A DNA stretch of 64,000 nucleotides from Pelomonas sp. Root405 (GTDB taxonomy: Bacteria; Pseudomonadota; Gammaproteobacteria; Burkholderiales; Burkholderiaceae_C), in the NCBI RefSeq assembly GCF_001425165.1, contig NZ_LMDU01000014.1, positions 441,056 to 505,055 of the forward strand, given 5' to 3'. The number at the start of each line of letters is the position of its first letter. Within the stretch, counting starts at the first letter, position 1. The notes below the pieces were generated by a model. The model saw only the letters and a list, made by a program, of their open reading frames with translations. It made no database searches and was not told the origin of the DNA. Of this stretch, positions 35,061-45,483 are shown piece by piece. The position numbers were made by a program, and so were the translations under genes.

Positions 35061-36905
35061 ATGAGCCGTTCCTCTCACCCAACCCGCCCCCGACTGCGCC
35101 TCTGGGCCGGCGCCCTCAGCTTGCTGGCCGCGCAATGGCTGGCTGTTGCCGCCATCGCCCAGCCTTCGGGCGGCCCCTATGGCCCCGTCCCGCAACGCTA
35201 TGCCGTGCCGAAGGCGGCGCAGGTCTATTTCGTCGCGCCCGACGGCAAGGCCGAAGCGCGCGGCGCGTCCGTCGAACAGCCCACCAGCATCGAGGCGGCC
35301 ATGGCCCGTGTCGTCACGGGCGATGCCATCGTCATGCGCGGCGGCACCTACCGCACTGGCGGCCTGCAGCTCAACCAGGGCATCACCATTCAGCCCTACT
35401 TGGACGAAGTGCCGGTCCTCAAGGGCACCCGCGTGGCCACCGAGTGGCAGGCGCTGCCGAACAATGTCTGGCGCACCAAATGGTCGACGCTTTTCCCGGC
35501 GCAGCCGATGGGCTGGTGGCAGCCCGACCGTGAGGGCGCATTGACGCCGCTGCACCGCTTCAACAACGACATGGTCTTCATCGACGGTGAGGCGCTGCAG
35601 TCCGCCGGCTGGGTGGGCGAGATGGGCAGCAAGGGCTTCTACATCGACTACGCCAGGGGCCATGTCTACATCGGCGTGAACCCGGCCGGCAGGCAAGTCG
35701 AGATCACCGCCCACGACATCGCGCTGCACCGACCCTCGCGGCCGGTGCACGGCAAGGCGTCGGACCGGAAGGGGCCGACGCTGCGTGGCATCACGTTCAC
35801 GCAATATGCCTACCGCGCCATCGACATCGAGGGCAAGAAGCCTTCCACCAAGGTGGAAGAGGAGCCCACCGACGACCCCGTCGGCCCGTCTCCCGAGAGC
35901 GAGCACGGCAAGGAGGTCGTCGGCACGCTGCTGGAGAACGTCACCATCAGCCACTGCTCGCGCGTGGCCGGCTATTTCCGCGGCGACAAGCTCGTCATCC
36001 GCAACTCGCTGATCAGCGACACCAGCACCGAGGGCATCTACGTCATCGGCTCGTCGGACGTGCTGCTGGAGCGCAACCTCATCCGGCGCAACAACGTCGA
36101 GCGCCTGACGGGCTACTACCCCGCGGCGGTCAAGATCTTCAACCAGTCGCACCGCGTCGTCGTGCGCGACAACCTCGTCGTCGAGCAGCCTCACTCCAAC
36201 GGTGTCTGGTGGGACGTGGGCAACCATGATGGCGTCTTCGTCAACAACCATGTCGAAGGCACGATGGCCGGCCTGTTCTTCGAGATATCCAAGGGCGTCA
36301 CCGTCGCCGGCAACGTCTTCGTCAACAACCAGCAAGGCATCCGCGTGCTCAACAGCGCCAGCGCCAAGGTCCACCACAACACCTTCGTCAATTCGCCGGT
36401 GCTGATCGACCGCAACGAGCGCAGCGCCCAGGGCGACCATTTCGGCTGGCATCCGCAGACCGGGCCGGACGTGAACGAGCGCACCGGCCATGTCTTCGAG
36501 GGCAACCTGCTGGTCGCCGATGCCGCCGTCAAGGGCCCGCTGCTGCGCTTCGAGCAACCGCCGGTCGTCTGCGGCAAGGTCACGGCCCCGATGACGACGC
36601 GCGTGGACGGCAACGTCTACATCCGCGCGGGCAACAGCCAGCCGCTCATCAGCTGGGCGCCAGTGGTGGGGGCCGCCTGCCAGACGAACTTTGCCAACCT
36701 CGACGACTTCCGCAAGGCTGTGCCGGGCGTGGAGGCCAAGGGCAGGGCACTGCTGGGCCATGAGGGCACCGTGTTCCGCAGCCCGGAGCTGCGCCGCTTC
36801 GAGCTGGCGCGCGTGCCCGAGGGCGTGCAGCCGTTGCCCGTTCCTGCCGATGTGCGCAAGCTGCTCGGCTGGACCGGCGCCCCACGCCTCCCGGGCGCGT
36901 ACTAA
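35061..36905 (+). CDS. Secreted right-handed parallel beta-helix protein (polysaccharide lyase-like fold)
   Basis: A 614-aa exported protein with a signal peptide (LLAAQWLAVAAIAQP). The N-terminal part has the AAMARVVTGDAIVMRGGTY pattern of beta-helix enzymes, with a domain around the WQALPNNVWRTKW segment. The middle has many short N-rich coils (LLENVTISHCSRV, LVIRNSLISDTSTEGIYVIGS, VLLERNLIRRNN, VTVAGNVFVNNQQGIRVLNS) that build the helix. This architecture is shared by pectate, alginate and chondroitin lyases, but the catalytic family is not identifiable by eye. The LacI-type palindrome upstream supports sugar-responsive control. Convergent with phnE, overlapping by 4 bp. Confidence 0.8.
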   Translation: MSRSSHPTRPRLRLWAGALSLLAAQWLAVAAIAQPSGGPYGPVPQRYAVPKAAQVYFVAPDGKAEARGASVEQPTSIEAAMARVVTGDAIVMRGGTYRTGGLQLNQGITIQPYLDEVPVLKGTRVATEWQALPNNVWRTKWSTLFPAQPMGWWQPDREGALTPLHRFNNDMVFIDGEALQSAGWVGEMGSKGFYIDYARGHVYIGVNPAGRQVEITAHDIALHRPSRPVHGKASDRKGPTLRGITFTQYAYRAIDIEGKKPSTKVEEEPTDDPVGPSPESEHGKEVVGTLLENVTISHCSRVAGYFRGDKLVIRNSLISDTSTEGIYVIGSSDVLLERNLIRRNNVERLTGYYPAAVKIFNQSHRVVVRDNLVVEQPHSNGVWWDVGNHDGVFVNNHVEGTMAGLFFEISKGVTVAGNVFVNNQQGIRVLNSASAKVHHNTFVNSPVLIDRNERSAQGDHFGWHPQTGPDVNERTGHVFEGNLLVADAAVKGPLLRFEQPPVVCGKVTAPMTTRVDGNVYIRAGNSQPLISWAPVVGAACQTNFANLDDFRKAVPGVEAKGRALLGHEGTVFRSPELRRFELARVPEGVQPLPVPADVRKLLGWTGAPRLPGAY

Positions 36906-37705
36906 CGCATCAACCAGCGGCGCAGCGCGAAGCTCGCCGCGTCCACCAGCGCCACCAGCACCAGCATGGCCAGCAGCACCGTGGCCGTCTTGTCCATCTG
37001 GAACAGGCCCATGTGGAAGCTCAGCAACTGGCCCAGCCCGCCGGCGCCGACGACGCCCAGCACCGCGGCGGCGCGGATGTTGTTCTCCCAGCGGTAGAGC
37101 GTGTAGCTCATTAGCTGCGGCACCACCTGCGGCAGCGTCGCGTACAGGAACACCTGCACGCCGCCCGCGCCCTGGGCCCGCAGCGCTGCCGCCGGGCCCG
37201 GCGGGGCGTTCTCCAGCGCCTCGGCGAACAGCCGGCCCAGCACGCCGCTGGTGTGGATGGCCAGGGCCAGCGTGCCTGCAAAGGGGCCGAGGCCGGCGCT
37301 GATGAGCAGCAGGGCGGCCCACACCAGCTCGGGCACCGAGCGCAGCGCATTCAGCAGCAGCCGCGTGAGGCCGCGCGCGGGGCCCTGCAGCCGGCTGGCG
37401 GGCAGGGCCATCGCCAGCCCGGCGAGCGCCGCCAGCAGCGTGCCCAGGGCCGACATCGCCAGCGTCTCCCAGGCGCCCGCGGTGACCCGGGCGACAAATG
37501 CGGGGCTGAGGTCGGGCGGAATGAATTCGCGCAAGAAGCGGCCCATGCTGGCCAGCGACTCGGCGGTGAAAAAGGCCGCCAGCTGCAGGTCCAGCGACGC
37601 AAAGCTGGCGATGACGAAGGCCACCACGCCCGCCACCAGCCAGCAGGCGCGGCAGCGCGCGCTGAACAGCGGCGGCGGCAGGCGGCGCGGGTCGGTCGGC
37701 TTCAT
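36902..37705 (-). CDS. Phosphonate-type ABC transporter permease (second PhnE)
   Basis: A 267-aa membrane permease of the PhnE class. A transmembrane segment precedes the periplasmic loop (LASMGRFLREFIPPDLSP). Then come the binding-protein-dependent transport domain and the coupling EAA-like loop (EALENAPPGPAAALRAQGAGG), ending with GAGGLGQLLSFHMGLFQ. It starts 4 nt after the stop of the other PhnE, giving a heterodimeric permease. It is the last gene of the senA-phnC-phnE-phnE run. Substrate may not be a phosphonate (see neighbouring selenoneine genes). Confidence 0.85.
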   Translation of the reverse strand: MKPTDPRRLPPPLFSARCRACWLVAGVVAFVIASFASLDLQLAAFFTAESLASMGRFLREFIPPDLSPAFVARVTAGAWETLAMSALGTLLAALAGLAMALPASRLQGPARGLTRLLLNALRSVPELVWAALLLISAGLGPFAGTLALAIHTSGVLGRLFAEALENAPPGPAAALRAQGAGGVQVFLYATLPQVVPQLMSYTLYRWENNIRAAAVLGVVGAGGLGQLLSFHMGLFQMDKTATVLLAMLVLVALVDAASFALRRWLMR

Positions 37706-37709
37706 TGCA

Positions 37710-38552
37710 TCAGCCCAGCGCGCGGCGCAGCGCGGCGCTCAACCTGTCGGCCAGCGCCACCAGCGCCACAAAGACCAGCAGCATCGTCGCCACCTCGCCG
37801 CCGGCAAACATCTTCATCGAACTGTCCATCTGCTGGCCCAGGCCGCCGGCACCGACAAAGCCCAGCACCACCGAGCTGCGAATGGCGCATTCCCAGCGGT
37901 AGACGGTGTAGCTCGTCAGCTCGGCCGCGTTCTGCGGCAGCAGGCCGTAGGCAAAGGCCTGCAGCCGCCCCGCGCCGTTGCGCAGCAGGGTCTGGGTGAC
38001 CTGGGCGTCGCCGCTCTCCAGAATTTCCGCATACACCTTGCCCAGCATGCCGCCATAGGTCAGCGCGATGGCGAGCACACCCGACGCCGGCCCCAGGCCG
38101 ACGACGCGCACGAACACCAGCGCCCAGACCAGCTCCGGCATGCTGCGCAGCACGATGAGCAGCAGGCGCACGGCCTGGCGCACGGCATAGGGCAGGGCGG
38201 CCATGCGGCCGGTCAGCGCCGAAACCGAGAGCGCCCGCGTCGCCAGCAGCGTCAGCGGCAGGGCCAGCAGCAGGGCCAGCGTGACGCCCGCAGTGGCAAT
38301 GGCGAGGGTGCGCCAGGTCTCGCGCGCCAGCAGCAGCAAAAAGTCCGCGCCCAGCGCCGGCGGGAAGAAGCTGTCGACGAAGCGGCCGGTGACGCGCAGT
38401 GCGTCCGCGTCGAGCAGCAGCCAGGGCTTGAACTCGGTGGCCACGAGCAGTGGCCACAGCAGCACGAGGCTCGTCAAGCCGAGGCCGAGCCGGCCGAGCC
38501 AGGCCGGGTCGCGGCGTGCAGCGATGACCGAGCCGGGCGCGCTCAGCGGCAT
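37710..38552 (-). CDS. Phosphonate-type ABC transporter permease (first PhnE)
   Basis: A 280-aa PhnE-class permease with six predicted membrane helices, a RFVDSFFPPALGADFL loop, the EAA-like loop (AEILESGDAQVTQTLLRNGAG) and GFVGAGGLGQQMDSSMKMF near the end. It overlaps the 3' end of phnC by 10 nt and is followed 4 nt later by a second permease. No phnD-like binding protein is adjacent, which is unusual for this transporter family. Confidence 0.87.
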   Translation of the reverse strand: MPLSAPGSVIAARRDPAWLGRLGLGLTSLVLLWPLLVATEFKPWLLLDADALRVTGRFVDSFFPPALGADFLLLLARETWRTLAIATAGVTLALLLALPLTLLATRALSVSALTGRMAALPYAVRQAVRLLLIVLRSMPELVWALVFVRVVGLGPASGVLAIALTYGGMLGKVYAEILESGDAQVTQTLLRNGAGRLQAFAYGLLPQNAAELTSYTVYRWECAIRSSVVLGFVGAGGLGQQMDSSMKMFAGGEVATMLLVFVALVALADRLSAALRRALG

Positions 38553-39376
38553 TGCATGACCACGGGCGCCGCGGGCGCGGGCGGTTCGTCGATGGCGGCA
38601 GGCGAATGACCATGCAGCTCATGCTCGTGTTGGGCATAGAGCCGCGCCAGCAGTTCAGGTGTCACGTCGGCGGCCGGCAGGTCGAACGCCAGCCGACCCT
38701 CGCGCAGGCCGAGCACGCGGGGGAAGTGGGTGAGCGCCGCGTCCACCTGGTGCAGCGAGGCCACCAGCGTGACGCCGCGTGCGCCCGCCTCGCGCACCAG
38801 CGCGGCAACGGCGCGCTGGGCCCGGGCGGGGTCCAGCGCCGACAGCGGCTCATCCACCAGCCACAGCCCGGCCGGGGCGACTAGCGCCCGCGCCAGGCCG
38901 ACGCGCTGGCGCTCGCCGCCCGACAGGCGGTCCACGCGCTCGAACAGCTTGTCGCTCAGTTCGAAGGCTGCCAGCGCCGCGTCCGCCGCCGGAATGTCGA
39001 CCGGGTAGAACAGCGAGCGCAGTGCGGTCCACAAACTCCAGCCCGGCAGCCGCCCGGCCAGCACGGCCGTGACGACACGCTGGCGCGGTGGCAGCGGCGG
39101 CACCTGCGGCACGAGGATGAGCCGGCCGCGCAGCCGCTGCAGGGCGCTTCGCGGCAAAGCCCAGGGGTCGGCACCGTCCACTGCCAGCTGCCCTTGCGAC
39201 GGCAGCCGCGCGCAGGCCAGCACTTCCAGCAAGGTGGTCTTGCCGGCGCCCGAGGGGCCGATGACGGCCAGTCGTTCGCCTTCGGCGATCTCCAGGCTGA
39301 GGCCGGCGAGGGCATCGGCCACGTCGCGCCGGGCGGTCGCGTGGCGCGCCGACAGGTCGTGCAGGGAAAGTTTCAC
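38543..39376 (-). CDS. Phosphonate-type ABC transporter ATPase (PhnC-like)
   Basis: A 277-aa ABC ATPase with Walker A VIGPSGAGKTTLLEVL, the PhnC-typical VLAGRLPGWSLWTALRSLF, signature LSGGERQRVGLARAL and Walker B LWLVDEPLSALDP. The GTG at 39376 (VKLSLHDLSARHA) is the natural start; the frame extends into senA but without similarity. It begins only 10 nt after the senA stop, on the same strand, with a TAGAGT hexamer overlapping that stop. Co-transcription with senA is likely, so its cargo may relate to selenium. Confidence 0.87.
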   Translation of the reverse strand: MKLSLHDLSARHATARRDVADALAGLSLEIAEGERLAVIGPSGAGKTTLLEVLACARLPSQGQLAVDGADPWALPRSALQRLRGRLILVPQVPPLPPRQRVVTAVLAGRLPGWSLWTALRSLFYPVDIPAADAALAAFELSDKLFERVDRLSGGERQRVGLARALVAPAGLWLVDEPLSALDPARAQRAVAALVREAGARGVTLVASLHQVDAALTHFPRVLGLREGRLAFDLPAADVTPELLARLYAQHEHELHGHSPAAIDEPPAPAAPVVMQCR

Positions 39377-39386
39377 GGGCCGGACT

Positions 39387-40544
39387 CTAGCCGGCCGCGC
39401 AGCTGCGAAAGCCCGCAGGGACATCGTTGCGCCCGGCCGGGAAGAAGTTGCGGTAGCGCAGGTGGCGCATGCGCGGCTGCGTGAGGTGCGAGGCGCCGCG
39501 CAGCACCGGCCGGCCGTCGAACCAGGGCGCCGAGTAGTCGCGGTAGGGATGGGGCGTGAAGCCGGGGAAAGGCGCAAAGGCGCTGGCCGTCCACTCCCAG
39601 ACGTCGCCCCAGCGGAAGGCCTCGGGCCGCGTGCTGGCGGCGCATTCCCACTCGGCCTCGGTGGGCAAGCGCCGGCCGGCCCAGCGGCACCAGGCCAGCG
39701 CTTCAGCCTGCGTCAGATGGCAGGCGGCCAGACTCAGATCCAACGCCTCCCAGCTTCCGTGGCGCCACTCGAGCCAGCCACTGCCGTCGCGGCGCAGATA
39801 GCGCGGCATCGGGGCGAGGCCGGCGTCGACGACCGGCAGGTAGTCGGCCCAGCGCAGCGGCTGGGCGTCGATGCAGAAGGGCGGCAGATGGACGTCGATG
39901 CCCGGCAGCTCGTTGTCGAAGGCAAAGCCCTCGCCCTTGGCACTGCCCAGGCGCCAGCGCCCGGCGCCGAACTGCAGCGGCGCGGGCCGGGCCGGCAGCG
40001 GGCGGGGCTGCCAGCGCGCATCGTCGATGCGCACGCCCAGGCCACGCGCCATGTAGAGCGCGGCCTCGTGGTGCATGTCCTCGTGCAGCAGCACCAGGCG
40101 GTAGAAGTAGAGCGCGTCGTCATCGCGACCGGCGTCGCGCAACAGGCCCAGCGTCTCGTCGAGCTGGTGTGCCAGGTCTTGCCGCGTGGCGGCGGCATCG
40201 GGCAGCGGCAACAGCCAGCGGCTGTCGTGCGGCACCTGGCTGGAGTCGTAGAGGGCGTCGCCCGCCGAGGGCCGCCGCGAGGCCTGCGGGTCGGCGCGCC
40301 GGCCGCGGTCGCGCTCGGGGTTGCGGGCGATCCAGAAGGCTTGGAACCAGCCGATATGGCCCAGCTCCCAAAGTGGCGGGTTGATGTCGGCACGCAGCGG
40401 CACGGCCAAGCCGGGCAAGGCGCGCTCGTAGTCGGCGAAGGTGGCCAGCGTGTCGGCCCGGCTGGCGGCCAAGGCCTGGGCCAGCGCCTCGGGGCCGCCC
40501 CGACGGGCGTCCAGCGCCGCGCGGGTTAGGCTTGCATCGTGCAT
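39387..40544 (-). CDS. senA: SenA, selenoneine synthase (EgtB-like non-heme iron enzyme)
   Basis: SenA joins hercynine with a selenosugar by oxidative C-Se bond formation, the key step of selenoneine synthesis. The protein (385 aa) has an N-terminal DinB-like domain with candidate iron ligands His63 (WELGHIGWFQ), His154 and His158 (LLHEDMHHEAALYM). Its C-terminal formylglycine-generating-type domain has PTEAEWECAA, FRWGDVWEWTAS and FRSCAAG. Alone it could be called EgtB. Linkage to a SenB-like glycosyltransferase and selD identifies the selenium variant. Its start codon overlaps that of divergent senB by 6 bp. phnC follows 10 nt after its stop. Confidence 0.88.
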   Translation of the reverse strand: MHDASLTRAALDARRGGPEALAQALAASRADTLATFADYERALPGLAVPLRADINPPLWELGHIGWFQAFWIARNPERDRGRRADPQASRRPSAGDALYDSSQVPHDSRWLLPLPDAAATRQDLAHQLDETLGLLRDAGRDDDALYFYRLVLLHEDMHHEAALYMARGLGVRIDDARWQPRPLPARPAPLQFGAGRWRLGSAKGEGFAFDNELPGIDVHLPPFCIDAQPLRWADYLPVVDAGLAPMPRYLRRDGSGWLEWRHGSWEALDLSLAACHLTQAEALAWCRWAGRRLPTEAEWECAASTRPEAFRWGDVWEWTASAFAPFPGFTPHPYRDYSAPWFDGRPVLRGASHLTQPRMRHLRYRNFFPAGRNDVPAGFRSCAAG

Positions 40545-41513
40545 CGTCTTGAATCCCTGGTCATCGTGACGCCGGCCCTGGCCCAGGCCAACAACGGCAA
40601 TTGGCAGACGGCGCATCGCTGGGCGCAGCTGCTGCGGCCAGCTTATCGCGTCGGCCTGGTCGAGCACTGGACCGGGGGCGACGAGGCGCTGCTGGTCGCC
40701 CTGCATGCGCGGCGTTCGGCCGCCGCCATCGCCGCGTTTCGCGCAGAGCATCCGGCGCGGCCCATCGTGCTGGTGCTGACCGGCACCGACCTCTACCGCG
40801 ACATCGCCACCGATGCCGCCGCGCAGCGCTCGCTGGAGATTGCCGATGCCCTCGTCGTGCTCAACGAGCTGGGCGCGCGCCAGTTGCCCGAGGCACTGCG
40901 GGCCAAGGCCCATGTCGTGCTGCAGTCCTGCGCGGCCCGCGCGCCGCTGCCCTGCAGCAACCGGCACCTGCGCGCGTTGATGGTGGGCCACCTGCGTGAC
41001 GAGAAGGATCCGCGCACCTACTGGCGCGCCGCCGAGCGCCTGGCAGCGCGCGCGGACATCCGGCTCGACCACCTCGGCGCCGCGTTGGACCCGACCCTGG
41101 GCGCCGAGGCCGCAGCGTTGGCCGCGGTCCTGCCCAGCTTCCGCTGGCTCGGCGGCCTGCCGCACGCAGCCGCGCGGCGGCGCATCCAGGCCGCCCACGT
41201 GCTGGTGCACCCCAGCCGCATGGAGGGAGGCGCCCATGTCGTCATCGAGGCCATCCGCAGCGGCACGCCGGTGCTGGCCTCGTGCATCGACGGCAACCTG
41301 GGCCTGCTCGGTGCGGGTTACGAGGGCGTCTTCGAGCCCGGCGACGACGCCGCGCTGGCGGCCCTGTTGGCGCGCGCCCGGGACGATGCCGATATGCTGC
41401 CGCGACTCGCCGCCCAGCTCGCCCCACGTGCCGCCCTTTTCGCGCCCGAGGCCGAGCGGGCCACCTTGCGCGGCCTTGTCGCCGCGCTGCTTGCCAGACC
41501 GACGCCGCCATGA
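40539..41513 (+). CDS. senB: SenB, selenosugar synthase (GT-B glycosyltransferase fold)
   Basis: SenB uses selenophosphate and a UDP-sugar to form the selenosugar that SenA consumes. The 324-aa protein starts at a GTG with MHRLESLVIVTPALAQANNGN. It contains ANNGNWQTAHRWAQLL, VLVLTGTDLYRDI, a LMVGHLRDEKDPRTYWRA core and the GT4-like HPSRMEGGAHVVIEAIRSG...PVLASCIDGN donor site. A TAGGCT hexamer lies 6 nt before the GTG. The stop overlaps selD by 4 nt (ATGA), so SenB and the selenophosphate supplier are translationally coupled. Family assignment rests on motifs and context. Confidence 0.87.
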   Translation: MHRLESLVIVTPALAQANNGNWQTAHRWAQLLRPAYRVGLVEHWTGGDEALLVALHARRSAAAIAAFRAEHPARPIVLVLTGTDLYRDIATDAAAQRSLEIADALVVLNELGARQLPEALRAKAHVVLQSCAARAPLPCSNRHLRALMVGHLRDEKDPRTYWRAAERLAARADIRLDHLGAALDPTLGAEAAALAAVLPSFRWLGGLPHAAARRRIQAAHVLVHPSRMEGGAHVVIEAIRSGTPVLASCIDGNLGLLGAGYEGVFEPGDDAALAALLARARDDADMLPRLAAQLAPRAALFAPEAERATLRGLVAALLARPTPP

Positions 41514-42583
41514 CCGCCACCGCCTGCCCCGCTCCCGCCGCCGAACCCCGCCTCACGTCGCTGTCGCATGGCGGCGGCTGCGGCTGCAAGATCGCGCCGG
41601 GCGTGCTGTCCGAGATCCTCAAGGGCACGGCCGGCATGCCCATTCCCAAGGAGCTGCTCGTTGGCATCGAGACCGCCGACGACGCCGCCGTCTACCAGCT
41701 CAACGACGAGCAGGCGCTGATCGCGACGACCGATTTCTTCATGCCCATCGTCGACGACCCGTTCGACTTCGGCCGCATCGCCGCCACCAACGCCATCAGC
41801 GATGTCTATGCCATGGGCGGCCGGCCCATCCTGGCCCTGGCCCTGGTCGGCATGCCGATCAATGTGCTGTCCACGCAGACCATCGGCCGCGTGCTGGAGG
41901 GCGGCGCCTCGGTCTGCCGCGCGGCCGGCATTCCCATCGCGGGCGGCCACACCATCGATTCGGTCGAGGCCATCTACGGCCTGGTGGCGCTGGGCCTTGT
42001 CCACCCCAAGCGCGTCAAGCGCAATGCGGATGCGCGGCCGGGCGATGTGCTGGTGCTGGGCAAGCCGCTCGGCGTGGGCGTCATGAGCGCGGCGCTGAAG
42101 AAAGAGCAGCTCGGCGCCGAGGGCTATGCCCGCATGATCGACACGACGACGAAGCTCAACACGCCGGGGCCCGACCTCGCGGCCCTGCCGGGCGTGCACG
42201 CGCTGACCGATGTGACCGGCTTCGGTCTGGCCGGCCATGCGTTGGAGCTGGCGCGAGGCGCCGGCTGCACCGCCGAGATCGACTGGCGCGCCGTGCCGCT
42301 GCTGGCGGGTGTGCGCGAGCTGGCGCAGCGCGGCTTCGTCACCGGCGCCTCGGGCCGCAACTGGGCCGGCTATGGCGGCGATATCGCGCTGCCGGCCAGC
42401 TTCGCCGACGAGGACCGCGCGTTGCTGACCGACCCGCAGACCAGCGGCGGCCTGCTGGTGTCCTGCGACGCGAGCGCGGTGGATGCCGTGCTGGCCATCT
42501 TTGCAGCCCATGGCTTTGCCGATGCCGCCGTGGTGGGCCGCGTGACGGCGGCCGGGCAGGCCGCGCTGCAAGTGCGCGACTGA
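41510..42583 (+). CDS. selD: Selenide, water dikinase (SelD/SenC), selenophosphate synthetase
   Basis: Makes selenophosphate from selenide and ATP, the selenium donor for SenB. The catalytic loop HGGGCGCK is intact with Cys24 and Lys27. ATP and metal motifs follow: DDAAVYQL, TTDFFMPIVDDPFDFGRIAATN (as two segments), GGHTIDS, TDVTGFGLAGH and TDPQTSGGLLVS. Length is 357 aa. It overlaps senB by 4 nt. Its last ~100 bases plus the following 28 bp recur 4470 bp downstream as part of a broken selD copy. In this position it is the senC equivalent; whether it also serves selenocysteine or selenouridine synthesis is unknown. Confidence 0.95.
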   Translation: MTATACPAPAAEPRLTSLSHGGGCGCKIAPGVLSEILKGTAGMPIPKELLVGIETADDAAVYQLNDEQALIATTDFFMPIVDDPFDFGRIAATNAISDVYAMGGRPILALALVGMPINVLSTQTIGRVLEGGASVCRAAGIPIAGGHTIDSVEAIYGLVALGLVHPKRVKRNADARPGDVLVLGKPLGVGVMSAALKKEQLGAEGYARMIDTTTKLNTPGPDLAALPGVHALTDVTGFGLAGHALELARGAGCTAEIDWRAVPLLAGVRELAQRGFVTGASGRNWAGYGGDIALPASFADEDRALLTDPQTSGGLLVSCDASAVDAVLAIFAAHGFADAAVVGRVTAAGQAALQVRD

Positions 42584-43156: not shown

Positions 43157-44296
43157 TCATAAGGACGGCTGCTGCGCCTCGTCGTGCCGGAAGCGCATCA
43201 GCGCCGCGTCGACCATGCCCTCCGGGCTGCCTCGCTCGGCATGCTGCTGGCGCAGGTAATTGGCGTCGCTGCCCTCGTGCGTGGCGCGGTAGAGGTGGTC
43301 GAGCGCGGCGCGGCTGCCGAGGCGGTCGGCATGCGGCTCCAGGTGGCGCAGCGTGGCCAAGATGTCCTCGCGCAGCGACAGCGTCTCGTAGCCCTTGGGA
43401 TGCACGATGGTGCCGTCCAGGCCGAACCGGCAGGCCTGGAAACGGTTGTAGTTGTAGACCAGGTAGTCGTCCTCGACCGGCGGCGGCTCGACGCGCTCCA
43501 GCAGGTGGGCGCACAGGGCCTGCAGATAGCAGGCCAGCGCCGCGGCGCGCTCGACGGTCAGCGGCGTGTCGCAGACGCGCAGCTCGATGGTGCCGAACTC
43601 GGGCTTGGGGCGGATGTCCCAGTAGAAGTCCTTCATGCTCTTGACGATGCCGGTGCGCTCCATGTGGGCGAAGTAGCCCTGCTCGAAGCCCTGCCAGTCA
43701 AGTACGAAGGGCGCGCGGCCGCTCAGGGGGAAGGCGAACACCGAGTTCAGCCGCGCGGAGTTGAACAGCGTGTCCTTGCCCTGCACGAAGGGCGACGACG
43801 CGGACAGCGCGATGAAGTGAGGCACGTAGCGGTTCAGCGAGTGCAGCAGGAACATCGCGTCGTCACCCGAGGCGCAGCCGACGTGCACGTGCTGGCCGAA
43901 GATGGTGAACTGCTTGGCCAGGTAGCCGTACAGCGCCGAGACCTCCTTGAAGCGCGGCTTGGAGTAGATCTTGCGCTGGCTCCACTGCTGGAAGGGATGG
44001 GTGCCGCCGCCGGCCACGCCGACATTGAGCGTGTCGCCGGCGCGCACCAGCGCATTGCGGATGTCCTTGAGCTGCGCGAGCAGGCCGGTGTGATCGGTCT
44101 GGATGTCGGTGGAGATCTCGATCATGCTTTCGGTGATCTCGGGCACCACGTTGCCCGGGAAGCGGGTGCGGCCCAGCAGTTCCAGCATGTCGGGGCTGGC
44201 GTCGATGAGGTCGAAATCGCTCAACGAGACGAGCTGCAGCTCCAGCTCGACGCCCAGCGTCAGCGCGGCGGATTTGGTGAACGCTTCAAGGGCCAT
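43157..44296 (-). CDS. YbdK-family carboxylate-amine ligase (glutamate-cysteine ligase type 2 family)
   Basis: A 379-aa GCS2-family protein. Family members form amide bonds between a carboxylate, usually glutamate, and an amine such as cysteine. Visible conserved parts are [66 protein letters not shown] and [15 protein letters not shown]. It is coupled to the upstream antiporter gene (ATG overlapping TGA) and to the downstream marR (1 nt). A role in thiol supply near the selenium genes is an attractive but unproven inference. Confidence 0.9.
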
Positions 44297-45483
44297 CAGT
44301 GCTCCGCGGGCTCATGGGTTTCGCGCGCCCAGATGAGCGCGCGCTGCGTGACGACCGGGCCGGCCAACTCCAGCAGCAGCGTGGTGGCGGCGAGCGCGGC
44401 GAGCTGGTCGACCAGGTCGACGCCGAGATAGCGCGCCTGCTCCAGCAGCAGGATGACGAAGACCGAGATCGGCGTCATGGCCAGGCCGGTCAGCATGCCC
44501 TTGCGCGGCGTGACGCCGCTGAGCCGCGCGAACGCCGTCACGCCGGCGACCTTGGCCGCCGCACGCACGGCGATCAACGCCAGCGCCAGGCCCATGCCCT
44601 GCCACACGCGCTGCCACTCCAGCGTGCTGGCGACGAACATGAACAACACGACCGTCAACACATCGCCGAGGGCGCCGAAGTTGCGCTGGGTGGCGCTGAA
44701 GGCGATGCGGCGGTGGCGCGCCATCAGGCCGAAGGTGAGCGTGGCCAGCACCGGCGACAGCTTGAAGGCGTGCGCCACCGCCACGAGCAGCATGACGGCG
44801 ATGGCGAACGCCACCGTCGCGTCGCGGCTGACATTGCCGGTGCGCCGCAGCAGGGCCGGCACGCCGATGCCGAACAGCGCGCCCAGCGCCGCGGATGCAG
44901 CCAGCAGCACGACGCTGTTCAACGACGCCTGCAGCAGGCTGCCCGAGCTCTGGAAGGTCCACACCCCAACGATCACCTTGAAGGTGAACACCGCCAGCAC
45001 GCAGTTCAGGCCGGTCAGGTGCACCAGACGCTCGGTGACCTGGCCGGAGCTGCGCTGCTCGTTGACGACCCGCATGATGGACGCCGGCGAGGTCGACATT
45101 GCCAGCGAGGCCAGCAGCAGGCCGGTCAGCGTCGGCAGCCCCCAGAAGGAGGCCAGCAGCAGCACGCAGGCGAAGGTCAGCCCCGATTCCAGCAGCCCGC
45201 TGGCTGCCAGCCAGGGGTTGTTGCGCAGCCAGTTGAGGTTGATGCGGTAGCCGAACTCGAACAGGATCAGCCCGAACGCCACGTTGGCCAGCAGCATGAC
45301 GGTGCCGCCGGCGTCCGCGGGCAGCAGCCCGGCCTGGGCCGGGCCGAGGGCGAAACCGACCACGCCGTACAGGCAGATGCGTGGCAGCCCCGTCCAGCGG
45401 TGCCCCAGCTCGCCCACCACCCAGGCCAGCACGACGGCGATGGGCCAGCCGAGCTCCTGCAGCGCCTTCATGCTGTCAAGCAT
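44296..45483 (-). CDS. Cation:proton antiporter (CPA2/KefB-like membrane domain)
   Basis: A 395-aa membrane protein with about eleven helices matching the sodium/hydrogen exchanger domain ([21 protein letters not shown] split by a loop, [32 protein letters not shown]). It lacks the C-terminal TrkA-N domain of KefB/KefC. Ion specificity is unknown. It begins 62 bp downstream of the small hypothetical gene and overlaps the YbdK start. KefB/C systems respond to glutathione adducts, and the neighbour makes a gamma-glutamyl-type ligase, so a stress-linked unit is possible. Confidence 0.87.

Follow-up and report, generated by a model that had tools for sequence, protein, structure and literature searches.

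Which compound do the divergent genes at one locus of Pelomonas sp. Root405 make, and how might selenium reach them? The locus lies in a window of 64,000 nucleotides, the whole stretch of DNA that was analysed (contig NZ_LMDU01000014.1, positions 441,056 to 505,055 of the forward strand). It holds candidates for the selenoneine biosynthesis genes senA, senB, and selD (senC) and, directly behind senA, genes for an ATP-binding cassette (ABC) importer. Our reading is that this is a working selenoneine locus with two divergent arms, fed by a hybrid importer of a selenium oxyanion, most likely selenite; we give this reading a probability of roughly 0.8.

The original prediction, made from the letters of the window alone, had named an EgtB-like iron enzyme, a glycosyltransferase with the motif ANNGNWQT, and an intact SelD with the motif HGGGCGCK as the set SenA, SenB, and SenC. 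All three assignments were borne out by comparison with NCBI curated family models and their cut-offs, and all three genes are present with open reading frames. Gene senA (39387..40544, minus strand, ATG start, 385 aa) is predicted to encode selenoneine synthase, a non-haem iron enzyme of the EgtB kind. Its product scored 450.4 bits against the SenA model NF041186 (cut-off 420; E-value 2.4e-126), and its closest PDB entries are 8ryz and 8k5i, both selenoneine synthase (365.8 and 365.7 bits). On the opposite strand, senB (40539..41513, plus strand, GTG start, 324 aa) would encode the selenosugar synthase, a GT-B Se-glycosyltransferase; the protein carries ANNGNWQT, scored 421 bits against TIGR04348 (cut-off 300; E-value 6.6e-135), and is closest to PDB entries 8jjq and 8fbx (324.5 and 324.4 bits). 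The selenophosphate synthetase gene selD (41510..42583, plus strand, 357 aa) matched NF002098 with 537.4 bits (cut-off 299; E-value 1.2e-161), its closest PDB entry being 3u0o, a selenide, water dikinase (327.5 bits). Within HGGGCGCK, the residues CGCK, which we take to include the catalytic Cys and Lys, are kept in the alignment to this structure. The E-values of the best models exclude chance matches for the three genes.

Furthermore, the accessible part of a study of Variovorax paradoxus SenB gives N20, T23, K158, and E231 as donor and catalytic residues (PMC10891094), and all four are retained in the window SenB as N21, T24, K156, and E229, counted by hand in the alignment. The selD start lies inside the senB stop codon, so that the two genes share 4 nt (ATGA), a coupling that had been described correctly. 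The interval proposed for the locus, 38543..42583, stood only in part: 39387-42583 comprises the sen genes, but 38543-39376 encodes an ABC ATPase, which is no sen enzyme and had not been named. The closest named loci by SenB are from Roseateles (82% SenB identity), and locus L030 shares flanking genes. Taken together, the identification as a selenoneine biosynthesis locus with SenA, SenB, and SenC is supported by the family and structure comparisons.

Could the EgtB-like protein instead work with sulfur, like a usual EgtB or OvoA, or be an OvsA-type selenoxide synthase? SenA is homologous to EgtB, and it counts against our assignment that the SenA model is passed by 30 bits only, with the genome's own EgtB reaching 340 bits on that model, under the cut-off. 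However, the window protein scored 176.4 bits against the EgtB model TIGR03440, far under its cut-off of 360, and in the PDB search the 365.8 bits of the selenoneine synthase compare with 107.6 bits for the OvsA structure and 94.9 bits for the best EgtB structure. In a quick tree comprising 25 SenA rows (the limit set for SenA) and 7 EgtB rows, with no OvoA or OvsA rows and with rows containing stops or short matches omitted, the two sets were split by one branch with a Shimodaira-Hasegawa-like approximate likelihood ratio test (SH-aLRT) value of 100; a position of SenA among true EgtB enzymes, which the original prediction had named as evidence to the contrary, was not found. In addition, a true EgtB is encoded elsewhere in the genome (529.6 bits against TIGR03440). 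As far as sequence can tell, these four results rule out senA as a plain EgtB, and the wider alternative has next to no chance of being correct.

The true egtB adjoins the only EgtD-family (PF10017) match in the whole genome (G000:C13:308830-309732, 366.1 bits), whose product scored 383.7 bits against TIGR03438 (cut-off 290.9). Hercynine for SenA can thus come from this egtB-egtD pair, in line with the earlier remark that the window holds no egtD and that hercynine must be supplied from elsewhere. Regarding other uses of selenium, the window selD is the only match over the cut-off of TIGR00476 in the genome, one SelU match was found (359.6 bits, cut-off 219.75), and the profile search of the genome returned no match for SelA. 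With a single SelD and a SelU family member present, selenophosphate is not reserved for SenB, and the idea that selD serves selenoneine only was ruled out. We infer from this gene content that selenophosphate serves selenoneine and probably tRNA selenouridine too.

What, then, are the genes behind senA? All three lie on the minus strand. The first, abcC (38543..39376, PF00005), encodes a PhnC-like ABC importer ATPase and has a GTG start 10 nt past the senA stop. It is followed by two genes for PhnE-like permeases (PF00528), abcE1 (37710..38552), which overlaps abcC by 10 nt, and abcE2 (36902..37705), which begins 4 nt past abcE1. The same GTG AAA CTT occurs at the start of abcC in a relative (L203). 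A start inside the senA stop codon was considered and ruled out, with senA ending at 39387 and the GTG at 39376. The best NCBIfam match of abcC is TIGR02315 (PhnC) with 166.6 bits, under the cut-off of 266.1; against TIGR01097 (PhnE), abcE1 scored 196.1 bits and abcE2 261.7 bits, under and over the cut-off of 216.7, respectively. These permeases are the sole strong PhnE matches in the genome (261.3 and 195.6 bits in the genome search; the next match had 51).

No binding protein stands beside the abc genes at the window locus. The sole strong Phosphonate-bd match in the genome is a protein on another contig, C1 (250.7 bits; next 53.2). This protein scored 402.8-402.9 bits against TIGR04553, the NCBIfam family 'putative selenate ABC transporter substrate-binding protein' (cut-off 250). 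It also exceeds the cut-off of TIGR01098, the phosphate/phosphite/phosphonate subfamily, and stays under that of the PhnD equivalog (174.2 bits against 261.1). The window genome therefore departs from the standard TIGR04553 operon, in which an ATPase and two permeases lie beside the binding protein, and represents a split variant; nor does it hold the PhnCDE equivalog set, as PhnC, PhnD, and one of the two PhnE are under their cut-offs. As the only strong candidates of their kinds in the genome, the unlinked binding protein and the window transporter probably form a pair.

Is this tie between transporter, sen genes, and selD kept among relatives? The best 80 of at least 178 confirmed loci from a SenB locus scan were compared, and 200 genomes of the family were surveyed; the two surveys overlap, with identical coordinates for G205/G009 and G206/G176. 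In the loci, senA is divergent from and adjacent to senB in 59 of the 71 with 1.5 kb upstream, and selD follows senB in 61 of the 75 with 1 kb downstream. Among the 55 loci with at least 6 kb upstream, 28 carry the permeases together with a TIGR04553 binding protein, and a further 3 (L003, L004, and L030) carry the permeases only. By this count (28/55 full and 3/55 partial), the statement that most sen loci have the transporter was rejected.

In the genome survey, SenB was over its cut-off in 74 genomes and the binding protein in 90. Both occurred in 57 genomes, SenB alone in 17, the binding protein alone in 33, and neither in 93. For 45 of the 57 genomes with both, the binding-protein gene and senB are no more than 20 kb apart, and the former is then always upstream of senB and oppositely oriented. 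Among the remaining 12 are the window genome and G039, where the distance is 22.3 kb; in the rest, the two genes are on different contigs. As a control, the 22 listed relatives that stayed under the binding-protein cut-off in SenB-positive genomes were examined, and none was within 20 kb of senB. In the 33 SenB-negative genomes with the binding protein, both permeases adjoin it in 32, and selD is found within 2.5 kb in 19. The binding protein was never seen in a genome without SelD over the cut-off: it occurs in 90 of the 185 SelD-bearing genomes and in none of the 15 SelD-less ones (Fisher p 1.5e-4).

A different layout was found in Rhodocyclales (L066 and L070), where the transporter operon lies downstream of senB. 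The order in L070 is senB, an oxidoreductase-SelD fusion (759 aa), the binding protein, the ATPase, and the permeases. The fusion gene of L070 (11033-13312), between senB and the binding-protein operon, encodes SelD with an N-terminal oxidoreductase-like part, and similar spacing with low selD identity suggests such a fusion in L052, L063, L064, L072, L076, L079, L080, and L081 as well.

These separate layouts (sen-linked, Rhodocyclales, and selD-linked without sen) argue for a shared selenium function. The ABC genes might instead be mere neighbours in a conserved block. In close relatives, the surroundings with ada, an EamA transporter, and the beta-helix protein are kept too, so that block inheritance is possible there, and 24 of the 55 sen loci do without ABC genes. 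Yet Rhodocyclales have the operon joined to sen in another arrangement, 19 of 33 genomes have it with selD but no sen, and inertia hardly accounts for such repeated, independent joining. We therefore regard mere neighbourhood as very unlikely.

How might the importer have come to be split? In a sister genome without SenB (G028), the order is binding protein, abcC, abcE1, abcE2, and a nitroreductase-like gene, and G092 has the same order. The binding protein of G028 is 92% identical to that of the window genome, and its ATPase and permeases are 53-64% identical to those of the window. On contig C1, the nitroreductase-like gene directly follows the binding protein, as it does in G141, G207, G201, and G202, and in the tree of binding proteins, the window genome falls together with G028 and these four genomes (97/98). 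The permease tree groups the window with sen-linked copies, including those of R. saccharophilus and Pelomonas aquatica (9 rows, SH-aLRT 95). Rows with stops or short matches were omitted from both trees. R. saccharophilus (G200) and P. aquatica (G203) have a single binding protein each, which is sen-linked. From these relationships, we infer a hybrid importer, in which the ATPase and permeases would derive from the sen-linked copy and the binding protein from a separate copy that has since lost its ATPase and permeases. What looks like a second, independent split is present in G067: its sen locus has the ATPase and permeases and no binding protein, the binding protein is encoded on another contig, close to its end, and no ATPase follows it in the available 1.1 kb.

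Furthermore, one genome of this group, G141, has lost most of senA and senB. Of these two genes, the gap between selD and abcC (L203 9867-10080) retains just the 3' ends, ~43 codons from senB and 21 from senA plus the senA stop, while selD and the sen-type ATPase and permeases are kept (86-89% identical). Retention of the transporter after the loss of senA and senB argues against the movement of selenoneine and for a general selenium supply. It was also observed that a second copy of the block, L206 in G201 (the genome of Roseateles puraquae L003), has the ATPase and permeases directly beside selD, no senA or senB match, and ada/EamA/beta-helix surroundings as at the window.

The transporter could, in principle, carry selenoneine, ergothioneine, or hercynine instead of a selenium oxyanion, a view that draws on its position directly behind senA and on a second egtD-like gene in 26 of the 55 related sen loci. 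It is at odds with the ABC genes kept beside selD in G141, with the operon kept in the 33 SenB-negative genomes, and with the pocket of the binding protein, which is the small buried oxyanion pocket of PhnD1 and PtxB. Transport of such a betaine is highly improbable. The second egtD-like gene itself lies between the binding protein and senA (e.g., L012 7806-8714), was recognised by tblastn only, and has 41-46% identity to the genome's EgtD in most loci and lower identity in a few. None is present at the window locus. Judging from its position, it may provide a hercynine supply dedicated to sen.

Which oxyanion would a selenium importer of this kind bind? Among solved structures, PtxB and the PhnD1 proteins of Synechococcus and Prochlorococcus come closest to the binding protein. 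Its structural model (predicted local distance difference test, pLDDT, 88.9) has PhnD1 and PtxB with phosphite, phosphate, or methylphosphonate as nearest folds. For Prochlorococcus PhnD1, the accessible portion of the published work names the residues binding the three oxygens of phosphite and a Tyr that caps the P-H bond, and reports that phosphate is bound more weakly than phosphite by 2-4 orders of magnitude (PMC5700983). Nine phosphite-site residues were checked, and 9/9 in the genome's protein are identical to Prochlorococcus PhnD1 (Pm_PhnD), covering the oxygen-binding STS-H-Tyr set and the capping Tyr/Asp. In 31/31 sen-linked binding proteins, the oxygen-binding Tyr, STS, and His do not vary, nor does the cap Tyr, the alignment comprising 31 of 32 with the short L047 left out. 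Selenite shares with phosphite the shape of a pyramidal XO3 anion, whereas selenate is tetrahedral like phosphate. Given a phosphite-type pocket and the phosphite-like shape of selenite, selenite is favoured over selenate. Gene neighbourhood points to selenium as the probable cargo, and the pocket to selenite as its favoured form.

The same pocket makes phosphite the chief rival cargo. On that account, phosphite or a small phosphonate would be what the ABC system imports, and some other cause would explain why it adjoins sen and selD. The identity of all nine ligand-site residues with those of a high-affinity phosphite binder fits it, as do the nearest folds with their phosphorus ligands and the match over the TIGR01098 cut-off. 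However, the absence of the binding protein from all 15 SelD-less genomes, compared with its presence in 90 of 185 SelD-bearing ones, speaks against it, as does the nearby selD in 19 of 33 genomes without sen. The protein also falls under the PhnD equivalog cut-off and far over that of TIGR04553. We consider phosphite or phosphonate import unlikely.

Two subtypes of the sen-linked binding proteins were observed at the cap positions, D36 with D221 in 17/31 and E36 with N221 in 14/31, and position 192 is N in 15, D in 14, and S in 2 (L002 numbering, n=31). The two cap subtypes may mark a difference in cargo.

Several points weigh against a sen locus fed by a selenite importer. The pocket matches those of phosphite binders, and phosphite may be the cargo instead; the NCBI family name reads 'putative selenate', not selenite. 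Neither a permease nor a binding protein was found in the flank of the 24 sen loci mentioned above. Of the SenB-positive genomes, 17 of 74 are without a TIGR04553 binding protein, and among 18 genomes searched singly, five (those of L009, L014, L019, L033, and L078) have sen, but no binding protein or PhnE over the cut-off. Selenoneine synthesis hence does not need this transporter, and another selenium supply evidently suffices in such genomes. The co-occurrence of SenB and the binding protein has a Fisher p of 3.2e-12 uncorrected for kinship of the survey genomes, and the permease tree was a quick run with no bootstrap. Finally, a promoter scan of the region found no sigma-70 -35/-10 pair.

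As to how the two arms might be started, the senB GTG and the senA ATG overlap on opposite strands as GTGCAT (40527-40544 region). A promoter -10-like hexamer, TAGGCT (40527..40532, plus strand), lies 6 nt ahead of the senB start codon and inside senA. Of 80 related loci, 50 have the pattern TAnnnT 5-8 nt ahead of the senB start chosen for them, compared with 81 of 16,000 random positions, and this spacing makes a leaderless senB mRNA possible. Rfam and tRNA scans of the window gave 0 matches each, and the region has 3 terminator-like sites against 1.9 expected.

In the mechanism that we propose, one arm would comprise senB-selD, and the opposite arm senA followed by the ATPase and two permeases, with senA and the abc genes presumably transcribed as an operon. 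Selenium would enter as an oxyanion, most likely selenite, which the periplasmic TIGR04553 protein encoded on the other contig would catch and hand to the PhnC/PhnE-like ATPase and permeases. Inside the cell, the oxyanion would be reduced to selenide. SelD would then form selenophosphate, SenB would place the selenium onto a uridine diphosphate (UDP)-sugar, and SenA would join the selenosugar to hercynine from the genome's EgtD, with breakdown of the product giving selenoneine. The SelD-SenB-SenA chemistry is that of published work (PMC9814287, and the accessible parts of PMC10891094 and PMC10702425). The same selenophosphate could pass to SelU for tRNA selenouridine. The more general proposal is a dedicated high-affinity bacterial selenium importer that binds selenite in a phosphite-type pocket, a lone pair replacing the hydrogen of phosphite, that supplies both selenoneine and tRNA selenouridine, and whose subunits were re-assorted between copies. 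We hold it tentatively, at a little under even odds.

Other genes adjoin the locus. A right-handed beta-helix, NosD-like protein is encoded beside abcE2 (35061-36905) and is kept in L030, L203, and L206. On the other side are genes for a YbdK-type carboxylate-amine ligase and an antiporter-like protein (43157-45483); relatives of these two (60% and 34%) lie beside the binding-protein operon in G005 (L134).

How does the locus compare with known systems? The sen enzymes themselves are an already known pathway, of which this locus is a further member. By families and closest structures, they are the same three enzymes (SenA, SenB, and SenC) as those of the sen cluster of V. paradoxus DSM 30034. 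That cluster is described as three genes, with no transporter mentioned in the accessible parts of the reports (PMC10891094, PMC10702425, and PMC9814287), whereas here an ABC ATPase gene follows 10 nt past senA, together with two permease genes. The ergothioneine pathway (EgtB and EgtD) has hercynine and the EgtB fold in common with selenoneine synthesis, with both of its genes at another site in the genome; according to published work, SenA uses a selenosugar in place of a thiol donor, and it forms a separate branch of the tree.

For the importer, the link of TIGR04553 to selenium is not new, since the NCBI family name already hints at it. The unlinked binding protein of the window genome is a member of this family, but stands apart from its transporter. 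The family name is that of a hypothetical equivalog and says 'selenate'; the pocket described here argues for selenite instead. No paper on the TIGR04553 accession was found in the open full-text literature; a search of the same literature, most subscription papers being outside its scope, returned no paper that ties the transporter to selenoneine synthesis. An ABC-transporter-related ATPase has been listed among genes near orphan selD in several phyla, with no family or cargo given in the accessible portion of that study (PMC5029168). It may be the same ATPase as that encoded by abcC. As far as the available parts of two articles state, no specific selenium transporter is known in prokaryotes (PMC13188914 and PMC11097638), and in one of them five selenium-transporter candidates were deleted, none of which was required (PMC11097638, 2024). 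New here are the operon-like arrangement behind senA, the counts that go with it, the importer's split and hybrid make-up, the deletion scar, and the prediction of selenite. Gene order thus names a candidate selenium importer, with the cargo predicted more exactly than by the database name, and two kinds of genomes provide natural genetic tests: those with the sen-type transporter and no senA or senB, and those with the binding protein and transporter on different contigs.

Compared with PhnCDE, the binding protein, the ATPase, and one permease are under the equivalog cut-offs, and in the loci examined, linkage is to selD and sen, not to phosphorus genes. With PtxABC and Prochlorococcus PhnDCE, the system shares the binding-protein fold, the ligand-site residues, and a PhnC/PhnE-like ATPase and permeases. 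The cellular role of the marine cyanobacterial PhnDCE was called unknown by its authors in the accessible portion of their paper (PMC5700983). If our reading is true, this system would be worth considering as a selenite importer too.

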